This document shows positions 1 to 10,772 of a DNA stretch of 13,885 nucleotides, one piece after another. The notes beneath the pieces were generated by a model. That model saw only the letters and a list, made by a program, of their open reading frames with translations, searched no databases and had not been told where the DNA came from. How positions within the stretch are numbered: position 1 is the first letter of the stretch; each line of letters starts with the position of its first letter. The position numbers were made by a program, and so were the translations under genes. This DNA comes from Thermoplasmata archaeon (GTDB lineage Archaea > Thermoplasmatota > Thermoplasmata > Thermoplasmatales > Thermoplasmataceae), in assembly GCA_021846695.1 (NCBI GenBank), contig JAJZWN010000032.1, forward strand, positions 1 through 13,885, given 5' to 3'.

Positions 1-630
1 AGGATTCTAAAATCGCCCGAGAAAGAGTTGTTTACCAGACACTGGAAGAAGATAATTGCAGGTACACTACTTGCAGGTTCCTCCGGCAACTTTTTCTACT
101 TTGCAATATCACTTCTTCCTGTTCTCTTCGAATCACTGAATAAGATATCGGTTTTTGATGGGCTGATAGGTACTGCATTATTTGGGATCATTGACGTAAT
201 TTTTGTATTTGTAGGCGGGCAGTTGTCGGATAAACGTGGAAGAAGGGCAATTATAGCCGGTGCCAATATACTTGCACTGATTGTTTTATTCCCTTCCATC
301 TACCTGGTTGGCTTCGGGTATTTTGTAGTTTTCCTTTCCCTGTTTGCAATTGCGCATGGTCTCAGCTATTCACCTTTAGGTGCAATGATTTCAGAAATTT
401 TTCCCACGAATGTAAGGTATTCAGGGAACTCAGCCAGCTACCAGTATGGCAATTCATTCATAGGAGGGCCTGCTCCATACGCATCTGACCTCCTTGGCAG
501 TGTGTCTTATGTACTTTATCCTGTATTTACCCTGATTTTTATTCTTATTGCCCTTGGAGTTATCTACAAATCCAAAGAATCAGAGAAAATGTCTCTGGAG
601 GATTCCGCGTCCGGGTACATAGAATATTAA
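1..630 (+). CDS. MFS transporter, metabolite:H+ symporter type, C-terminal half (5' end outside window)
   Basis: The frame is open from base 1, so the start lies upstream and about 209 C-terminal codons are visible. They contain six hydrophobic segments, matching helices 7-12 of a 12-helix major facilitator transporter. After the second segment comes GGQLSDKRGRR, the loop 8-9 copy of MFS motif A (GxLxDrxGRR). Further on, SEIFPTNVRYSGNSASYQYG closely follows the conserved stretch of the metabolite:H+ symporter (MHS) family, whose members take up organic acids, betaines or other small solutes with protons in the cytoplasmic membrane. The substrate cannot be told from this half. The end is a soluble tail of about 25 residues. 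The TAA stop overlaps the stop of the convergent chelatase gene by 4 bp. A TTG at 28 could be read as a start but would leave only half a transporter, so a truncation by the window edge is the simpler reading. Confidence 0.88.
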   Translation, partial: RILKSPEKELFTRHWKKIIAGTLLAGSSGNFFYFAISLLPVLFESLNKISVFDGLIGTALFGIIDVIFVFVGGQLSDKRGRRAIIAGANILALIVLFPSIYLVGFGYFVVFLSLFAIAHGLSYSPLGAMISEIFPTNVRYSGNSASYQYGNSFIGGPAPYASDLLGSVSYVLYPVFTLIFILIALGVIYKSKESEKMSLEDSASGYIEY

Positions 631-2465
631 TTTATTTTTATATTTTCTATATTATTTATTATTTTTGCCCCTGCGTATGATGATATTATACCGTTATATG
701 TTGGAAGAAATTTATTGTCATTTTTATCGATTATGTACATACTTGACAATGGCTTAATTTTCTTAGATATTTCCATCAGGTTTTCCCTTGCATTTCCTGG
801 AAACACATTTCCCCTTCCGTCCGTTACCAGAAGTGATACCGTTTTTAATTTTTCATACGAAGATAATTTATATATATTCTCAAGGGCATCGTACAGTGGG
901 GTCTTTCCGCCACTGGAAATATTATCGATAATGTTTTTCAACGCCGTAAAATTCCTTGAAAAATTCATTAATACTTCCGATCGCTCGCCTGCAAATTTTA
1001 TAAGTGCAACTCTGCTTCTCATAATATACAATTTTTTGAGCAGCATATCTGAAAATTCTCTGGCGATTTCAATTCTTGAACTGAAATTCATTGACCTGCT
1101 CGAGTCTATGGCTATTATAAATGGAATTGAGCCTTTTGAGTAGGAATCTTTCATAACAATGGTTTTCTCATTTATCATTCTGAAGCCCGAACTCCATGTA
1201 TTCAGAAGTGAATGCCTTATATCCATGTAGGTTCCTGATTTCCTGCCTCTATGCCTGAATTGCTTTGCTCTTCCGCTACGCCCTGATTTTTTTGTTTCTA
1301 TTTTTTTGCCGGGATTTACTTCAAGATTATGGACTGTGCTTTCCCTGTTTTCCTTCTGCTTCTGCTGCTTCTCCTCTCCATTTCTCCCTGCTTCATGATT
1401 CTTTTGATCCGTGGGAGTGGACTGATTGCTGGCAGAATCCTGTTCCTGGTTATCATCTGTGTTATCTCCATTATTGCCCGGGTCATTAAAATTATAATCT
1501 GGCCTGCTCTTCCCTTTTTCCTTCATCCTGTGGTTAAGGGCAAATTGCAGTGCCTTCTTCAGATCATCTTCATTGACTTCTGTTCTTCCATAATATGCAG
1601 CTATTGCCTTTGCAGTTTTTACAGTGCTTATCATGGCCCTGTTGCTCAGGGAATTTTTGATCACTAAATCTGCTATAAAAACCCTGTATTCCCTTTTTAT
1701 CTTCACATAAGGCAACAGTTTTCTTGCGTTAACTATCTTTAACTGAATTTCACGATCCGGAGCCCTGAACTTTTCTATAAAGCTTTCCCTATCACTGTCA
1801 AATTCTTCAACCCGATCAGCTATATCAAGAAGTGTTTCCGGAGATTCTGGCATTTTTCCTTCAACAGAGATGCCAAAACGGTCAAGCAATTGTGGCCTGA
1901 GTTCTCCCTCTTCAGGATTCATTGTGCCTACAAGGATGAATCTGGCAGGGTGTGTGTAAGATACCCCCTCCCTTTCAACAATATTTATCCCGGAAGCAGC
2001 TGAATCAAGTATTGAATCCACGATAGAATCATCAAGGAGGTTTACCTCATCTATATACAATATTCCCCTGTTTGCTTCGCCTATCAAACCTTCACGGAGA
2101 ACAGATTCGCCTTTTATAGCATGGGATATGTCAAGTGACCCGACAACACGGTCAAGGGTGGTGCTATTGGGCAGATTTATTATCCTTATCTTCATATTTT
2201 CAGTTTTAAGTTCTCCTTTTTTCTTGGCTTCCAGGCATTCGTCACACAGATCGCCATCAGGGTCGCAGTGGAACCTGCATCCCTTGACCGCCTTAACTTC
2301 CGGAAGTATGGATGACAGTGCACGCACCATTGTTGATTTGGCTATACCCTTTGGGCCTGTTATGAGTAAACCGCCAATATTGCTATCTATTGCATTTACA
2401 ATAAGCCCGAGTTTTATGTCTTCGTTATCGACTATGGCAGAAAAAGGAAATGGATATGTCCTCAT
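627..2465 (-). CDS. Fused ChlI-ChlD type chelatase subunit (AAA+ ATPase plus VWA domain), probable CobN partner
   Basis: This 612-residue protein joins the two small subunits of a CobN/ChlH-type metal chelatase. Residues about 1-315 form the ChlI-like AAA+ motor: Walker A GPKGIAKST (37-45), Walker B ILYIDE (135-140) and the sensor-1 region VGTMNPEEGELRPQLLDRF (179-197). An insertion holds four cysteines (63, 67, 74, 77), the Cys-rich insertion seen in many ChlI/ChlD-type proteins. Residues about 316-410 are a hydrophilic linker, first acidic and Asn/Gln-rich, then basic. From about 445 to the end is a von Willebrand A domain with a full MIDAS: DSSRS (454-458), Thr522 and Asp549. Such proteins use ATP to drive metal insertion by the large subunit. 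The start ATG (2465) overlaps the cobN stop by 4 bp and has an AGGGTGA-type ribosome site just upstream, so translation is probably coupled to cobN. The paired cobN points to cobalt rather than magnesium, but the metal is inferred. Confidence 0.9.
   Translation of the reverse strand: MRTYPFPFSAIVDNEDIKLGLIVNAIDSNIGGLLITGPKGIAKSTMVRALSSILPEVKAVKGCRFHCDPDGDLCDECLEAKKKGELKTENMKIRIINLPNSTTLDRVVGSLDISHAIKGESVLREGLIGEANRGILYIDEVNLLDDSIVDSILDSAASGINIVEREGVSYTHPARFILVGTMNPEEGELRPQLLDRFGISVEGKMPESPETLLDIADRVEEFDSDRESFIEKFRAPDREIQLKIVNARKLLPYVKIKREYRVFIADLVIKNSLSNRAMISTVKTAKAIAAYYGRTEVNEDDLKKALQFALNHRMKEKGKSRPDYNFNDPGNNGDNTDDNQEQDSASNQSTPTDQKNHEAGRNGEEKQQKQKENRESTVHNLEVNPGKKIETKKSGRSGRAKQFRHRGRKSGTYMDIRHSLLNTWSSGFRMINEKTIVMKDSYSKGSIPFIIAIDSSRSMNFSSRIEIAREFSDMLLKKLYIMRSRVALIKFAGERSEVLMNFSRNFTALKNIIDNISSGGKTPLYDALENIYKLSSYEKLKTVSLLVTDGRGNVFPGNARENLMEISKKIKPLSSMYIIDKNDNKFLPTYNGIISSYAGAKIINNIENIKIN
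631..670 (+). terminator. T-rich tract downstream of the transporter gene
   Basis: Straight after the transporter stop the + strand is mostly T with some A and contains several runs of four or five T. Archaeal RNA polymerase commonly terminates at such U-rich tracts without a hairpin. The tract lies inside the 3' coding end of the convergent chelatase gene, where it encodes an Asn/Ile/Lys-rich tail. Termination here is an inference from base composition and position only. Confidence 0.35.
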
Positions 2466-5400
2466 TCGTTTTCACCCTCTATTTCCATGTACTCTTCCTC
2501 AAGCTGTTCCTTCATGCTATCGCTGGCATGCCATATATCCCGCTTATATGCCTCTATCATTCTTGAGGTAATTTCTGAAAGGGCCCATGGATTTTCTTTT
2601 TTGAACCACTCCTTCATTTCCCTGTCAAGTACAAATTTATTAGCTATATTATTGAAAATATTGTCGTTCACCATTCCGGTAGTAGCGCCCCAGCCGTATA
2701 GATGCTCGATCTTTTTCAGCATTTCTGTAGCGCCCCTATAGCCGAAATTTTTCTGTGCTTCAATCCATTTTTCATTCAACAATTTCCCAATAGCAGTACG
2801 TTCTATTTCCTCTTTCATTGTCCGTACCTGTGGCTTATTGGGATTAAATGTGTCTTCAAACATAAGCGATGGCTTTGAGCCGCTTTTCTTCGCCATAAGA
2901 TAGAAGCCGCCTGCATAGGAATAATTGCACGAATCGTCGTTTATGTCTATCTCATCGATTTCCCTTTTATGTATTATAGTTTCTATATCCTTAGAGATTG
3001 AAAGCAGCTCATCCTTTGATTCTCTTCCAAAGTTGTTTTTGCCATATGAATATCCCATCCATTCCGTAAATACATCCGCAAGGTCATTCTCATTTTCCCA
3101 TTTTGATGATTCTATTGCATTGTTAACTCCGGAACCGTAGGAACCGGGCTTCGAAGAAAATATTCTATCAAGGTGCCCGTATTTCTTATGGTGCTTGACA
3201 ATGAAATTTACATCATCATCTTCATCCAGTTCAGATACCTTTTTTATTGCCAGATCTATTAATTCTATTATATTGAAAAGATTGTCCCTTACAATGCCAC
3301 TGGATTCTACCACAACGTCGATTCTGGGCCTTTTAAGGACATCCAGGGGTATTGGCTTAACATCCTTTACCTTCTTTGTCCCTTCCTGCCACACAGGTTC
3401 TACACCAATTGTATAGAGTATCTGGGATATCAATTCCCCATCTGACCTGTATGCATCGGTAGACCAGAGAACAAATCCAATGGTTTCCGGAAATTTATTA
3501 TTTTTTTTGTATTCATTTTCAATGAGTTTGTTTGCCAGTATTACACCAACCTGCCATGCTGAATGGCTGGGTATCTTGAACGGATCAACGGCATAAAAAT
3601 TCCTGCCTGACGGCAATACATCATACCTTCCCCTGGTGAGCGACCCGGAAACTCCGGGTTCTATAAATTTGCCATTCAATGCCATCAGGAGATTGTTCTT
3701 TTCGTTTTCAGGCGAAAACTTTAGTTTTTCTATTATTCCGGTTTCGAGTTCGGGAATTGGTGTACCCTCATTTAAATAGGCCATTATTTGATTTTCAGCT
3801 TCTTCCTTGCCATATTTTTTGGATAATGACTCGTCAAAACGTGTGGCAGTTGTAACGTAATCCTTTAAATCATCTTTGTCAATATCTTTTCCGTAGATAT
3901 ATAATCCCTTGCTGATTATGGAATCCTTGAAGAGATTGAGGCGGTGTTCAATTTCATGCGTAGCTTTATGTGCATCCTTAAAATCTATGGATAAGCCAAT
4001 TTTATCTGAAATCTTCTGGATTTTCTCAAGGATCATGGTTTCCCTTGATGTATTCTCTGCCTTTTCTGTTTCCTCATAATCATCTATGAGGTCTTCTAGC
4101 TCCTTTATATCATCGGGAACATCATCGTAGGCTGTTGGCGGAGTAATATAATCAAGAAGGACTGCATAGCTTCTCCTTTTAGCTATTATCCCTTCTCCGG
4201 GAACATTTGTGGAATAAAGGTATAGATTTGGAATCTCACCGATAGAAATCTCCGGAAAATCTGATGGTGATAGCCCGAGGCCTTTCCCCGGCGTGAATTC
4301 CAGTGTTCCATGTGTTCCAACATGTATTATTGCATCTGCCCTGAAAATTTCCTGGATCCATTTATAAAATGCAAGCCAGTAATGGGTAACCGGCGTCAGG
4401 GAGTCATGTATTGACCTGATGCTATTATCATTGTCAGCAAATGTAATTCTCTTTGGCTGTATGCCTATAAAAATATTCCCTGATATGATCCCGGGAATAT
4501 GCATGGTACCGTTAAGGAGCATGTAGTCCCTTTCAGTGTTAAGTTCCCCCCAGCGCTTGATTATCATATCCTGCGAATCCTCTGGCAATTCGCGGAAAAA
4601 TTTCATATACTCTTTTACTGGCATTCCATAGACGGATCCGCCCTTATTTATTATTTCTTCAACAGGCGTCCACTTTCCTTCAGGTATTGCCTTTTTCTCC
4701 ATTATTGTTTTAATAAGAGATTCGCCGTTCTCCGGCAGGTAATCCATATTATATCCATTCTCACGCAGTAATGACATTATGCTGGATACTGAATTAAGTG
4801 TGTCAAGCCCTGTTGCTGTACCGATATTGGCTTCCAGATCCTTGAAAGATGAACCTGAATGCAGTATAATAGCTATCTTTTTCTCAGAATTTTTCATATA
4901 GCGCAGGTTGACCCATTTCCGGATCCTGTTAATCATGTATTGTGCCTGTTCCTTGACGGGGACGAGTTCCCTGTATATGGTGCCCCTGTCATAAATTTTC
5001 TTAATAACGCCGATAAGTACAGGCTCAATAGTCCCATCCATTTCAGGAAGCATTGCGCTCATAATAGTTGATACAACGTCCAGCCCGGAAGAATCAAGCC
5101 ATTCCTTTTCCTCTTTATAATAATATATTAAACCCTGAAATACAGGAACACCCAGATTCATCAGTGTACTTTTATCCTCCTTCTTGATTAGGGAGAACGA
5201 TAATAGATTTATAACTGCATCAACAACTGGCTTCCCATCGCTGTAGAAATATGTATTTATGCATTCTTCAGCACTCATTATTCCCCTTGACCGGTCACCA
5301 AAGCCGTTTGTGAACACCGGTATTGCAGAAATTTTATTATTATTTAAATTATCTATAATGTACTGTATTATTTTTGTGTCCCTGTCTACCCATGCTGTCC

Positions 5401-5872
5401 GGTAAAATAATATTCCTACCTTCTTAGGAAACTCAGTATTTCCATATTCATAGATTCCGGAAAATGGCATCTCAACCGGCTCTTCATAATGCCGGGGGGT
5501 TATGGTGTTTTCAATGAATAATACCATATTCTTAATATTTTCATAGCCACCGTAGAAATAGTAATTTGATACTTTTTCTTCGACAAATTTGCTCACCGTT
5601 GAATAATTGCTCAGTATCGGGTCAATGGCTATTACATTCTTCTTCCCCTTAATGACGCTTTCTATGTCTTCAAGAATATTGCTGTAAATATTTTCACCGG
5701 AAAAATGATGGATGAATACAGCATCGGCATCTCTAACAAAGTCTATAAATTCCTTATCTACAGGATCAAGCCTTGGATATTTTATTTTTATTTCATTGCC
5801 TGTTTCCTCACCTGCGTGTAAAAATGACTGGATAACGGAACCGTTCCATCCTATAAGTACGGCAAACTTCAT
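2462..5872 (-). CDS. cobN: CobN-type cobaltochelatase large subunit
   Basis: This 1136-residue soluble protein has a length near that of CobN/ChlH chelatase large subunits (about 1,100-1,300). Two family blocks are plain: HVGTHGTLEFTPGKG (517-531), followed by NVPGEG (556-561) and AKRRSYAVLLDYITPP (564-579), and later SLTRGRYDVLPSGRNFYAVDP (744-764). The His and Glu of the first block sit in the substrate and metal site in this family. In known systems the protein binds hydrogenobyrinate a,c-diamide or another tetrapyrrole and inserts the metal with an ATP-driven AAA+/VWA partner, which here is the next gene. CobN is favoured over magnesium-chelatase ChlH because the organism appears to be a non-phototrophic archaeon. 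No other corrin gene lies in the window, so the exact substrate is unproven. The ATG at 5872 lies about 23 nt from a TATA-like box, which fits a leaderless mRNA and supports this start. Confidence 0.93.
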   Translation of the reverse strand: MKFAVLIGWNGSVIQSFLHAGEETGNEIKIKYPRLDPVDKEFIDFVRDADAVFIHHFSGENIYSNILEDIESVIKGKKNVIAIDPILSNYSTVSKFVEEKVSNYYFYGGYENIKNMVLFIENTITPRHYEEPVEMPFSGIYEYGNTEFPKKVGILFYRTAWVDRDTKIIQYIIDNLNNNKISAIPVFTNGFGDRSRGIMSAEECINTYFYSDGKPVVDAVINLLSFSLIKKEDKSTLMNLGVPVFQGLIYYYKEEKEWLDSSGLDVVSTIMSAMLPEMDGTIEPVLIGVIKKIYDRGTIYRELVPVKEQAQYMINRIRKWVNLRYMKNSEKKIAIILHSGSSFKDLEANIGTATGLDTLNSVSSIMSLLRENGYNMDYLPENGESLIKTIMEKKAIPEGKWTPVEEIINKGGSVYGMPVKEYMKFFRELPEDSQDMIIKRWGELNTERDYMLLNGTMHIPGIISGNIFIGIQPKRITFADNDNSIRSIHDSLTPVTHYWLAFYKWIQEIFRADAIIHVGTHGTLEFTPGKGLGLSPSDFPEISIGEIPNLYLYSTNVPGEGIIAKRRSYAVLLDYITPPTAYDDVPDDIKELEDLIDDYEETEKAENTSRETMILEKIQKISDKIGLSIDFKDAHKATHEIEHRLNLFKDSIISKGLYIYGKDIDKDDLKDYVTTATRFDESLSKKYGKEEAENQIMAYLNEGTPIPELETGIIEKLKFSPENEKNNLLMALNGKFIEPGVSGSLTRGRYDVLPSGRNFYAVDPFKIPSHSAWQVGVILANKLIENEYKKNNKFPETIGFVLWSTDAYRSDGELISQILYTIGVEPVWQEGTKKVKDVKPIPLDVLKRPRIDVVVESSGIVRDNLFNIIELIDLAIKKVSELDEDDDVNFIVKHHKKYGHLDRIFSSKPGSYGSGVNNAIESSKWENENDLADVFTEWMGYSYGKNNFGRESKDELLSISKDIETIIHKREIDEIDINDDSCNYSYAGGFYLMAKKSGSKPSLMFEDTFNPNKPQVRTMKEEIERTAIGKLLNEKWIEAQKNFGYRGATEMLKKIEHLYGWGATTGMVNDNIFNNIANKFVLDREMKEWFKKENPWALSEITSRMIEAYKRDIWHASDSMKEQLEEEYMEIEGENE

Positions 5873-7713: not shown

Positions 7714-9035
7714 TTTATGAAATTCTTATACTGGCAATACCGCTTATATCTATGGCTTACTTTAAAAAGATAAAGGAGGCAAGCATAATAGGTGCAATCA
7801 TAGAGATGGTATTGCTGATTCCATTGTACTTTAATATGGCTCCATCTGGATTCTTCTTTATAGACCATATCACATATATATTCATTTTAATGGTAAGTTC
7901 AGTATATCTTATGTCCCTGATATATTCCGTGAAATATGTGCATAACATAAAGAATAAAGGGATTTCAGAAAACGTTTATTACATGCTTATGGGATTCTTT
8001 TATGTTGCAATGGAATTTGCACTCATGGTAAATAATTACGGATTTATGTGGGTGGGGATAGAGACAACAACAATATCCTCTGCATTGCTTCTTATCACTG
8101 AAAAATCAGATATTTCACTTGAAGCCACATGGAGATATATTATTATTGTATCCGCAGGCGTCACATTTGCGTTTATATCTGTAATACTTATTTATTATTC
8201 ATTTGGAACGCTTACAATTACAACCATATTAGCCTATGGGGCAAAGGATACAATAGCTGTAAGGCTTGCAGTTGCAATAGCCCTCGTTGGGTTCGGTACA
8301 AAAGTAGGCGTATTTCCGGTACATACATGGCTTCCCGATGCCCATAGCGAAGCCCCGGCACCTGTCAGTGCAATGTTTTCAGGTGTGCTGTTGCCCGTTG
8401 CTCTTTATGTATTATACAGGATTTATGAAATATTTCCCATGAGGGAACTCTTTGTATGGGCTGGAACAATATCGGTACTGTTTGCAGCTATATTCCTTGG
8501 ATACCAGAAAAATTACAAGAGGATGTTTGCCTATTCTACAATGGAAAATATGAATATAGCGTTGATAGGTTTCAGTACTTTTACAATAACCGGGCTTATA
8601 GGTTCACTTCTCCTGCTGCTTGCCCATAGTTTTGGCAAAGCGGGGGCTTTCTATTCATCCGGAAATGTATATGAAATGTCTGGAACAAAATCAATCGATG
8701 GCGTATCAGGATTAATAAGGAACAGATCCAGTGCAGCTTCCATGCTTTTATCATCCTTTGCAGTAACCGGAACTCCTCCCTTCGGAACGTTCTTCGGTGA
8801 GTTCCTCATACTGTATTCCGTGTTTACAATCCACTTCTATGCCCAGTTTGTCATAATAGTTTTATCATTATTCCTGGCATTTGTATCAATTAATTTTAAT
8901 GTTTCAAAAATGATTTTCAGGGGAAAATCTGAGTACAGCCAGTCTGGAATTAATACGGCCTTGCCACTCATAGCCGCCATATTGTCAATATTTATTGGAG
9001 TGGTATTTCTGGTGGTGTATCATGCAATATTATAA
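7710..9035 (+). CDS. hyfF: HyfF/NuoN-like antiporter-type ion-pumping subunit
   Basis: This 441-residue protein with about 13-14 membrane helices belongs to the NuoL/M/N-Mrp antiporter family. The hallmark residues are present: Glu118 in the fifth-helix motif MWVGIETTTISSALLL, Lys198 in GFGTKVGVFPVHTWLPDAH (194-212), Lys270 in the next cytoplasmic loop or helix region, and Lys310 in AHSFGKAGAFYSSG. The segment VHTWLPDAHSEAPAPVSAMF is typical of HyfF, HyfD and NuoN relatives. In these complexes the subunit moves protons (or Na+) across the membrane when the redox arm turns over. It is shorter than E. coli HyfF (about 526 residues) and ends after the core helices with no lateral helix. A GGAGGA site precedes the ATG, which overlaps hyfE by 4 bp. 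Which ion is pumped is not visible, although protons are likely in an acidophile. Confidence 0.88.
   Translation: MIYEILILAIPLISMAYFKKIKEASIIGAIIEMVLLIPLYFNMAPSGFFFIDHITYIFILMVSSVYLMSLIYSVKYVHNIKNKGISENVYYMLMGFFYVAMEFALMVNNYGFMWVGIETTTISSALLLITEKSDISLEATWRYIIIVSAGVTFAFISVILIYYSFGTLTITTILAYGAKDTIAVRLAVAIALVGFGTKVGVFPVHTWLPDAHSEAPAPVSAMFSGVLLPVALYVLYRIYEIFPMRELFVWAGTISVLFAAIFLGYQKNYKRMFAYSTMENMNIALIGFSTFTITGLIGSLLLLLAHSFGKAGAFYSSGNVYEMSGTKSIDGVSGLIRNRSSAASMLLSSFAVTGTPPFGTFFGEFLILYSVFTIHFYAQFVIIVLSLFLAFVSINFNVSKMIFRGKSEYSQSGINTALPLIAAILSIFIGVVFLVVYHAIL
9011..9017 (+). promoter_or_regulatory. Ribosome binding site that decides the start of the large subunit
   Basis: GGTGGTG lies inside the end of hyfF and places its final GGTG 4 nt before an ATG at 9022. 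This favours 9022 over the ATG at 8995, which would add nine residues (rich in Trp, starting MEWYFWW) and has no comparable site in front. Confidence 0.6.
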
Positions 9036-10176
9036 GTTTGGAGAAAGTTCAGGGCGTTATATAGGAAGGAGCAAAAACTACGACGTATATGCCTCTTCAA
9101 TAGCTCCGGCAGTTGAAAACACAGACCAATTTGCGGATAAAAATCCAGGGGAAATCTATTTTAATTATGGTCCATCGGCAGGAGGGCTCAGGGAATCAGT
9201 AAATTTCAGCCTGCTTACTCCAGGGGAAACAATAAGGGATGTGATAATACATCCTGAATACAAAAAGCGCGATTTAAAAATTCTCGGAGACCCGGTTTCA
9301 CGTGCATTGCTTAAAGTTGAGAGGATAAATGGATTCCATGCCGCATCCAATAGCATAGGATACATTCTGGCAGTAGAAGAGGCACTGGGCATCGAAAATT
9401 CTGAATTAAATGACATGAGAATAGTGGAACTTGAACTGGAGCGCATAAGATCAAATATAGATGTTATAAAGGGCATGTGCGAATCAGCTGGATTTGCTGT
9501 TCCTGAAAAACAGCTCCTATATCTCAGGGAAGAGGTAGCACGGATTATATCCAGGGCATTCGGCCATAGATACTTTTTTTCTGTTAATGGTTTTGGAACA
9601 GTATCAGGAGATTTTTCAACAATAAAATTAAATGCCATTGAAAAACAGTTCCGTGATATTTATGATGGATTGTTATCCTCCAAGATATTCCTTGATAGGA
9701 TCCAGGAAAATGGAATCGTTAAAAATGAGAATTCAACAGGGCCAGCCGCCAGGGCAGCCGGATTTAAATTTGATGCAAGAAAAGATTCAAAATCGCTGGA
9801 TTATAGAAATTTTACACCGGTAACAGAATCTGGAGCAGACTCGTTCTCCCGGTTAGTTGTAAGATCAGAAGAGGTATTTGAAGCGATAAATATTATAGAT
9901 TCATATGGCGTTAAGAATATTAAAACACGGACAAAAAATGAATTAACAGGTTCAGGGAAGGGGTCTGCCCGTATAGAATCCCCTGCAGGCGATATTTTTT
10001 ATTATGTAAATATAGAAAATGGGAAATTAAATGATATCCAGATGGTTTCGCCTTCATACCTTAATTTAAGGCTGTTCAGGGAAGCTTTGAAAAATAACAA
10101 TATATTCACAGATTTCTTCTTTGTGTGGGAAAGTTTTGGCATATGGATTTCTGAACTGGAGGTGAATTTTATATGA
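9022..10176 (+). CDS. hyfG: HyfG/NuoD-like large subunit lacking all Ni-Fe cysteine ligands (Ehr large subunit)
   Basis: This 384-residue protein is a homologue of the large subunit of group 4 [NiFe] hydrogenases and of NuoD. Family blocks occur in order: GPSAGGLRESVNF near the N-terminus, VERINGFHAASNSIGYILAVEEALG (about 99-123), TGPAARAAGFKFDARK (239-254), SRLVVRSEEV, SPAGDIFYYV and a C-terminal block SFGIWISEL. The two ligand pairs of hydrogenases (RICGIC and SFDPCxxC) read RINGFH and SFGIWISE here, so no Ni-Fe site can form. Only one cysteine remains in the whole chain, at 153. The NuoC-like domain fused to E. coli HyfG is missing and no separate gene replaces it. No C-terminal extension is cleaved in known Cys-lacking members, and none is obvious here. 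Its fold probably hosts a different active site facing the proximal Fe-S cluster. It overlaps hyfF by 14 bp and hyfI by 4 bp. Confidence 0.87.
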   Translation: MQYYKFGESSGRYIGRSKNYDVYASSIAPAVENTDQFADKNPGEIYFNYGPSAGGLRESVNFSLLTPGETIRDVIIHPEYKKRDLKILGDPVSRALLKVERINGFHAASNSIGYILAVEEALGIENSELNDMRIVELELERIRSNIDVIKGMCESAGFAVPEKQLLYLREEVARIISRAFGHRYFFSVNGFGTVSGDFSTIKLNAIEKQFRDIYDGLLSSKIFLDRIQENGIVKNENSTGPAARAAGFKFDARKDSKSLDYRNFTPVTESGADSFSRLVVRSEEVFEAINIIDSYGVKNIKTRTKNELTGSGKGSARIESPAGDIFYYVNIENGKLNDIQMVSPSYLNLRLFREALKNNNIFTDFFFVWESFGIWISELEVNFI

Positions 10177-10772
10177 ACTGGTTCCTCAAGGGGGTAAAAA
10201 ATAGAATAAAGACGGAAGAGCTTGAGGGCTATAGGGTTGAACAGCCATCGTTCCTTGATGGGAAGAGCGATTATGATTGCCCTACAGATGCCCTGGAGAA
10301 TGGGAAATGGGACATGAACAGATGTATATTCTGCAGGGAATGTGATCTAAAACCCACAGGAAAACAGACAACTTTCACAGTTAATAGGGAAACACCACAC
10401 ATATTTGAAAAATCCCTGTATTTATATCCTATAGATTCCGGTACATGTGGAGCCTGCAATGTTGAGTTTACAACATTATTTTCCCCGCAGTATGATACAA
10501 ACAGATTTAAGATTTTTATGTCAAATACACCGAGGCATGCTGATGCACTTGTTGTTATGGGAGTGTACACAGATGGCATGGAAGCTGTTTTAAAGGAGGC
10601 TTATGATGCTATGCCTTCCCCTAAAATAGTCATAGGAATAGGGGCATGTGCACTCTCCGGAGGAATTATTGGCAGCAGGGCAATGGATAAATATGATATA
10701 GAAGTTGCAGGATGCCCACCCACACCTGCTTCTATAATAAACGCGATAATAAAGGCGAGGGGTAAAAGATGA
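10173..10772 (+). CDS. hyfI: HyfI/NuoB-like small subunit with N-terminal single-cluster ferredoxin domain
   Basis: This 199-residue soluble protein has two parts. Residues about 85-199 are the NuoB/HyfI-like small subunit, with the proximal [4Fe-4S] ligands in GTCGACNVEF (Cys92, Cys95), GIGACALSGG (Cys159) and AGCPPTP (Cys181). The CxxC spacing is that of group 4 hydrogenases, not the adjacent Cys-Cys of Complex I NuoB. Residues about 30-65 resemble a NuoI/HyfH dicluster ferredoxin reduced to one site: CPTDA (Cys36) followed by CIFCREC (Cys51, 54, 57). The first CxxCxxC is absent, and the last Cys-Pro reads Lys-Pro (60-61). The four left are those expected for a single [4Fe-4S] cluster. The protein would thus carry electrons from a soluble donor through its own ferredoxin site and the proximal cluster to the large subunit. 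A GGAGGTGA ribosome site lies 8 nt before the ATG, and there are 4-bp overlaps at both ends. Confidence 0.87.
   Translation: MNWFLKGVKNRIKTEELEGYRVEQPSFLDGKSDYDCPTDALENGKWDMNRCIFCRECDLKPTGKQTTFTVNRETPHIFEKSLYLYPIDSGTCGACNVEFTTLFSPQYDTNRFKIFMSNTPRHADALVVMGVYTDGMEAVLKEAYDAMPSPKIVIGIGACALSGGIIGSRAMDKYDIEVAGCPPTPASIINAIIKARGKR

Follow-up and report, generated by a model that had tools for sequence, protein, structure and literature searches.

A hydrogenase-like large subunit of Ferroplasma with Asn, His, Trp and Glu at the Ni-Fe ligand positions

What does a complex built like a group 4 hydrogenase do when its large subunit has no ligands for nickel and iron? Complex I and the group 4 hydrogenases share a common ancestry and, to our knowledge, complex I and MBS are the only complexes lacking a Ni-Fe site whose mechanisms have been worked out. 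The large subunits of Ehr complexes, exemplified by those of Sulfobacillus, Geobacter, Nitrospira and ammonia-oxidising archaea, are described in passages of PMC4378227, PMC10432482 and PMC10284858 as group 4-like without Ni-Fe motifs. Their function is called unknown in several papers, including parts of these three and of PMC7894505. A six-gene cassette of Ferroplasma raises the same question.

The locus and its Ni-Fe ligand positions

The window, the whole stretch of 13,885 nucleotides that was analysed, is part of a single-contig Ferroplasma genome of 1,826,943 bases. The cassette comprises six genes on the + strand in the 5'-to-3' order HyfC/NuoH, HyfE, HyfF, L, FdS and HyfB, with neighbours overlapping by 4 to 14 bases (4 nt between HyfC and HyfE) (Table 1). 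The large subunit L has five neighbours, where the first-pass annotation had counted six, and its reading frame (9022-10176, +) replaces a span of 9295..10150 whose end cuts the SFGIWISE motif. From the similar locus layout, we infer that these are the genes described in the published Ferroplasma genome paper. A sigma-70 promoter scan upstream, with a model ill-suited to archaea, gave no match above chance. Divergent from the cassette (627-5872, - strand) lie a CobN-type chelatase gene and a ChlI/VWA chelatase-like gene. A functional tie of these CobN/ChlD-like genes to the cassette was rejected, as they do not adjoin the cassette in locus L005.

Table 1. Positions of the cassette genes, domains and ligand-site motifs in the window.
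Feature	Position	Strand	Basis
HyfC/NuoH-like membrane anchor, 316 aa	6125..7075	+	PF00146 5.6e-33; alignment to HyfC of E. coli and to NuoH of the same genome; GTG start as listed
HyfE-like membrane subunit, 213 aa	7072..7713	+	NF008556 of NCBIfam (hydrogenase 4 membrane subunit), 39.6 bits against a cut-off of 136, 5e-10
HyfF-like antiporter-type subunit, 441 aa	7710..9035	+	NF005042 567 bits, above cut-off 437
Large subunit L, 384 aa, group 4 hydrogenase/NuoD fold without Ni-Fe ligands	9022..10176	+	ATG at 9022
L residue E58, beta1-beta2 loop	9193..9195	+	equivalent of HycE E193
L motif RINGFH, residues 101-106	9322..9339	+	N103 and H106 at N-terminal ligand positions
L motif SFGIWISE, residues 371-378	10132..10155	+	W375 and E378 at C-terminal ligand positions
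FdS N-part: ferredoxin domain, ligands for one [4Fe-4S] cluster	10173..10409	+	alignment with HyfH and own NuoI
FdS C-part: NuoB/HyfI domain, four proximal-cluster cysteines	10410..10772	+	PF01058 1.6e-21; MbhJ 9.9e-22
HyfB-like antiporter-type subunit, 581 aa	10769..12514	+	NF005046 643 bits, above cut-off 460

Alignment with E. coli HycE placed N103, H106, W375 and E378 of L opposite C241, C244, C531 and C534, with both CxxC spacings preserved. The single cysteine of L (C153) lies outside both motifs, which bears out the earlier claim that all four Ni-Fe cysteines are gone. The group 4 [NiFe] hydrogenase ligand motifs RxCGxC and DPCxxC were both absent from L in the alignment. L scored 16.1 bits against PF00374 (cut-off 25.8), and this profile found no match in the genome at E 0.001.

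The replacements are very regular. The top matches listed came to 127 proteins, of which the 120 full-length ones (7 shorter ones were dropped) form the family set used here. N103, W375 and E378 occur in all 120 and H106 in 119, the exception carrying Phe or Tyr. The loop residue E58, whose HycE counterpart has a role described in part of PMC9474812, is likewise kept in 120 of 120, as are the equivalents of HycE R395 (R244, 119) and E437 (E284, 117) in nearly all. Other parts of the hydrogenase site have changed. The canopy Asp and canopy Arg are both lost, with G373 at the Asp position, and the position of the proton-route His (H284) is Asn in L (N in 85 and H in 35 of 120). At the positions of the complex I quinone His and Tyr, the alignment places R57 and G104. 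In sister subfamilies with the cassette, the first three ligand positions differ, including N103 and, in several rows, H106 (again Phe or Tyr), and only Glu/Asp at the last is shared. The Ni-Fe site thus appears, from these alignments, to have been rebuilt and kept in the family, though sister subfamilies vary. Two sister-subfamily large subunits, L045 (G168) and L048 (G148), read ERYCGP, with Cys at the first ligand position and none at the others.

A structure search with the L model returned the fold of HycE, most rows among the matches listed covering model residues 40-381. MBS (6u8y) was not among the 50 structure matches listed, which says nothing about the fold of L. N103, H106, W375 and E378, together with the loop residue E58, would line the emptied Ni-Fe pocket.

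Neither decay of the operon nor sequencing error explains these replacements. L differs by one residue from a protein of Ferroplasma acidarmanus Fer1 (NC_021592), and its dN/dS against a Ferroplasmaceae MAG locus (L002) was ~0.08, a rough value given a dS of 1.3. Decay is unlikely because of this low ratio, and the gene set is intact, as the first-pass annotation had held, and subject to purifying selection. An error at the two motifs is very unlikely because the near-identical Fer1 protein and the 120 relatives carry the same residues.

Database names (among them Ni,Fe-hydrogenase III large subunit; formate hydrogenlyase subunit 3) would make this a functional [NiFe] hydrogenase or a formate hydrogenlyase. 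Against this stand the missing ligands, the loss of the canopy Arg and Asp, and the lack of HypD. HypD, the Hyp gene searched for, gave no match in this genome, while control genomes did give matches. None of the 20 phylum-sample genomes in which L is full-length (match >520 bits) has it either, while 160 of the 389 sample genomes do. The chance that the names describe the activity is next to nil, and hydrogenase activity was rejected on sequence grounds. The complex almost certainly belongs to the Ehr class and is no hydrogenase.

Loss of the ligands in these archaea has been in print since 2013. The relevant passages of Yelton et al. (PMC3750248) state that their putative group 4 hydrogenases lack both Ni-binding motifs, and those of Justice et al. 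2014 (PMC4378227) describe the same loss in Sulfobacillus and liken it to Ehr. The portions of open-licence literature searched, a body outside of which the main Ehr surveys lie, made no mention of the Asn-His-Trp-Glu site, of the missing canopy residues or of the one-cluster fusion described below.

The predicted electron wire and membrane arm

The start of FdS resembles HyfH and NuoI, but the first CxxCxxC and the final CP are missing in the alignment. Retained are C36-P and C51xxC54xxC57, ligands for a single [4Fe-4S] cluster, so that the domain is predicted to hold one cluster. By comparison with complex I, we take this to be the cluster adjoining the proximal one. The structure prediction for FdS had a pLDDT of 44 and the model was not used. 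The one-cluster cysteine pattern was found in 17 of 19 inner-clade rows, the window counted, two of them with an extra cysteine nearby. In the NuoC-fused type (L060, L061, L064), all eight cysteines of the ferredoxin part are retained. A further variant was seen in L058 and L059 (family f2, same order), where the fused ferredoxin part has an eroded cysteine pattern and the NuoB cysteines are unchanged; their complex may carry a single cluster in total.

The NuoB part of FdS has its proximal cysteines at C92, C95, C159 and C181, with hydrogenase-type CxxC spacing. As it aligns without gaps through the CxxC with MbhJ and HycG, four ligands are expected at the proximal cluster. Neither the vicinal cysteines of complex I NuoB nor the shortened three-cysteine motif of MBS/Mbx was seen in the FdS alignment. 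The earlier statement that the Fe-S ligands of the small subunit are intact therefore holds for the proximal cluster, while the ferredoxin part no longer has those for one of the two HyfH/NuoI clusters.

In the membrane arm, HyfF shares E118, K198, K270, H306, K310 and E364 with its homologues, and HyfB shares E104, K173, K251, H295 and K299. One HyfB position departs from the rest: T348 is a charged residue in all seven other proteins aligned (HyfF of the window; E. coli HyfB, HyfF and HyfD; and NuoL, NuoM and NuoN of the same genome), and one antiporter unit may be altered. No Mrp-type distal module is present among the six cassette genes.

Relatives and known systems

In a tree of 41 rows, 35 ligand-poor rows (one of which, L048, has Cys at the first ligand position) were set apart from the hydrogenases and NuoD with support of 100/99. 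The remaining rows were HycE/HyfG, two archaeal sequences in which the four cysteines are complete (G171, G303), and NuoD, with no named bacterial Ehr included. This grouping, the ligand-less group 4-like L and its NuoB-, NuoH- and antiporter-like partners uphold the earlier assignment to the Ehr class, and the likeness extends to the Ehr-like locus of Sulfobacillus, where, according to a passage of PMC4378227, six syntenic genes show homology to nuoH, nuoL, hyfE and hyfB, among others. A topology test of one ligand loss in common with complex I gave p-AU 0.489 and favoured neither answer.

The rows closest to the split are of the NuoC-fused type (ERxSGDN...KSFNLSYSG), those of Methanocella and Methanomassiliicoccus included. 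For this type, SGDN occurs in 93 of 120 relatives among the matches listed, others ending in KSFNLSYSG. We place this archaeal type, Methanocella included, in the Ehr class. The cassette differs from it in the residues at the ligand positions (N/H/W/E), in having no NuoC domain and one ferredoxin cluster rather than two, and in the additional loss from L of the canopy Arg and H188. HyfB is the last gene of the cassette and the first of the NuoC-fused type.

Gene order was compared across loci holding all six genes, the other loci ending early or being partly unresolved. The order HyfC-HyfE-HyfF-L-FdS-HyfB is the same in L001, L005, L048, L050, L051, L059 and L066, and in L056 with L in two pieces. 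Such a split gene was observed in the second cassette copy of G204 (L056, C3:748000-758500) and in the G177 copy (L039); an assembly error is possible in both. In L051-L055 (family f5), large-subunit frames run to 441-898 aa and some overlap HyfF; some of these loci have no separate HyfF or FdS frame, pointing to fusions or over-long frames.

Unlike formate hydrogenlyase and hydrogenase 4 (HycE, HyfG), the cassette has no Ni-Fe ligands and no HycB-type gene, and its genome has no HypD. L shares with NuoD the fold, the loss of all four cysteines and, as in NuoD of the same genome, Glu at the last ligand position. In contrast to complex I, it lacks the His/Tyr pair of NuoD, which we take to bind quinone (in part PMC9474812), FdS has CxxC rather than vicinal CC, and the cassette has no separate NuoA, NuoC, NuoJ or NuoK genes. 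With MBS/Mbx of Pyrococcus it shares lost Ni-Fe ligands and an ion-pumping arm. MBS, as portrayed in parts of PMC7684303, reduces polysulfide and carries an Mrp-type distal module; a shortened loop leaves its proximal cluster with three cysteines, and of the four Ni-Fe cysteines two remain. By comparison, L keeps none of the four, the proximal cluster of FdS has four cysteines and the cassette has no Mrp module.

Candidate donors, acceptors and direction

The reading we prefer, held tentatively and at somewhat under an even chance for the chain as a whole, is a proton pump that oxidises ferredoxin and hands the electrons, without forming H2, to an acceptor in the rebuilt pocket, for which a quinone is the leading candidate. 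Reduced ferredoxin from 2-oxoacid:ferredoxin oxidoreductases would be the most likely electron source. The ferredoxin domain of FdS, with its one cluster, would take up the electrons and hand them to the [4Fe-4S] cluster on the four proximal cysteines; that cluster would reduce an acceptor in the emptied pocket of L (N103, H106, W375, E378, E58). The likeliest acceptor would be a membrane quinone, bound by residues unlike the set of complex I, and the reaction would drive protons through HyfC, HyfE, HyfF and HyfB. Ferredoxin is suggested as donor because of the ferredoxin-type entry domain and the 2-oxoacid oxidoreductase of these genomes, and pumping because Glu and Lys residues are retained in HyfF and HyfB. 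A quinone site here would be new, because the complex I His and Tyr are missing, neither canopy residue (Asp, Arg) is left and the H284 position is Asn. Further points against the ferredoxin-quinone pump are the other residues in sister subfamilies, T348 of HyfB, and the Fdh-alpha genes of 33 of 37 genomes detailed below.

Genes for the alpha and beta subunits of a 2-oxoacid:ferredoxin oxidoreductase lie ~8.6 kb past the end of HyfB (G000:C1:520.3-523.1 kb, L015). All 101 genomes sampled from the order have an alpha match for 2-oxoacid:acceptor oxidoreductase, 81 of them above cut-off; co-occurrence with L has no discriminating power, since the family is in every genome. Complex I (NuoABCDHIJKLMN) is encoded in the same genome at G000:C1:572.9-582.5 kb (L017), ~35-36 kb from the cassette, with no NuoEFG within the stretch read. 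Its NuoD keeps the quinone His and Tyr.

Iron oxidisers must drive electrons uphill, and members of this superfamily can work in either direction. With the pumping residues retained, the complex might run in reverse, using the steep proton gradient of an acidophile to push quinol electrons up to ferredoxin for biosynthesis. We consider this quite unlikely, as complex I of the same genome could provide the uphill flow. Donation by formate dehydrogenase in an FDH-Ehr complex is unlikely as well. Such a complex has been proposed (in a passage of PMC6349859), Ehr proteins of Geobacter were more abundant on formate (part of PMC7894505), and a formate hydrogenlyase cluster was noted in Fer1 (part of PMC3750248). 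Two Fdh-alpha genes above cut-off are present in this genome, and in the order sample, 33 of the 37 genomes with L >520 bits have Fdh-alpha above cut-off, one has a weak match (G219, 97% complete) and three have none (G336, 96%; G421, 85%; G433, 78%). However, the FDH genes of this genome lie >330 kb from the cassette, which has no HycB-like gene among its six. Cassette genomes such as G336, and G090, a one-contig genome with a sister subfamily, have no Fdh-alpha match, although part of the missing matches may be missing data. Conversely, G050, G096, G156 and G271, of the genus of T. volcanium (G093), have Fdh-alpha and no cassette. FDH is thus no obligate partner, though a link is possible.

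The pocket itself allows other readings. Asn, His and Glu at the exact four-cysteine spacing, invariant or almost invariant in the family, could with E58 form a catalytic site for another metal, for example iron, zinc or manganese. This is very doubtful: W375 occupies one of the positions, H106 is Phe or Tyr in one of 120 proteins and several sister rows, and N103 is replaced in sisters. We regard it as doubtful, though less so, that the Asn-His-Trp-Glu set is a second-generation active site, served by two Fe-S clusters only, that holds a different metal or takes an acceptor of another kind than complex I and MBS do. If true, this would add a third kind of emptied hydrogenase site to the two in complex I and MBS. 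With six subunits, the complex is a compact Ehr; its rebuilt site is very regular across the family, its wire is predicted to have two clusters, and its hosts are culturable archaea.

The first-pass annotation had drawn an analogy to Mbx/Mbs and proposed a sulfur compound or a quinone as acceptor. In an MBS-like complex, the proximal cluster would reduce polysulfide with ferredoxin electrons. Common superfamily membership, the ligand loss and polysulfide reduction of MBS (according to part of PMC7684303) and an acidic, sulfur-rich habitat favor this. The hydrogenase CxxC spacing at the proximal cluster (the MBS motif is three residues shorter), the loss of all four cysteines and the lack of an Mrp module among the six genes weaken it, and T. 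acidophilum has no cassette, yet Thermoplasma spp. respire S0 (a passage of PMC3750248). The cassette is therefore not needed for S0 respiration in Thermoplasma; it could add to sulfur respiration where present. An MBS-type mechanism was rejected as first choice on cluster spacing and distribution and is improbable; a quinone acceptor is possible, though without the complex I His/Tyr pair.

The two Thermoplasma species were told apart by sequence. G096 was assigned to T. acidophilum by its proteasome alpha subunit, which matches PDB 2ku1 exactly over 233 aligned residues, with 1pma next best; we take both entries to be the T. acidophilum proteasome. G096 has no HyfE match, and its match to the L profile is weak and NuoD-like (98.8 bits). 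T. volcanium (G093) has both HyfE and L, the latter identical to protein P0100, which gives a natural species pair, with and without the cassette, in which Ehr function becomes testable.
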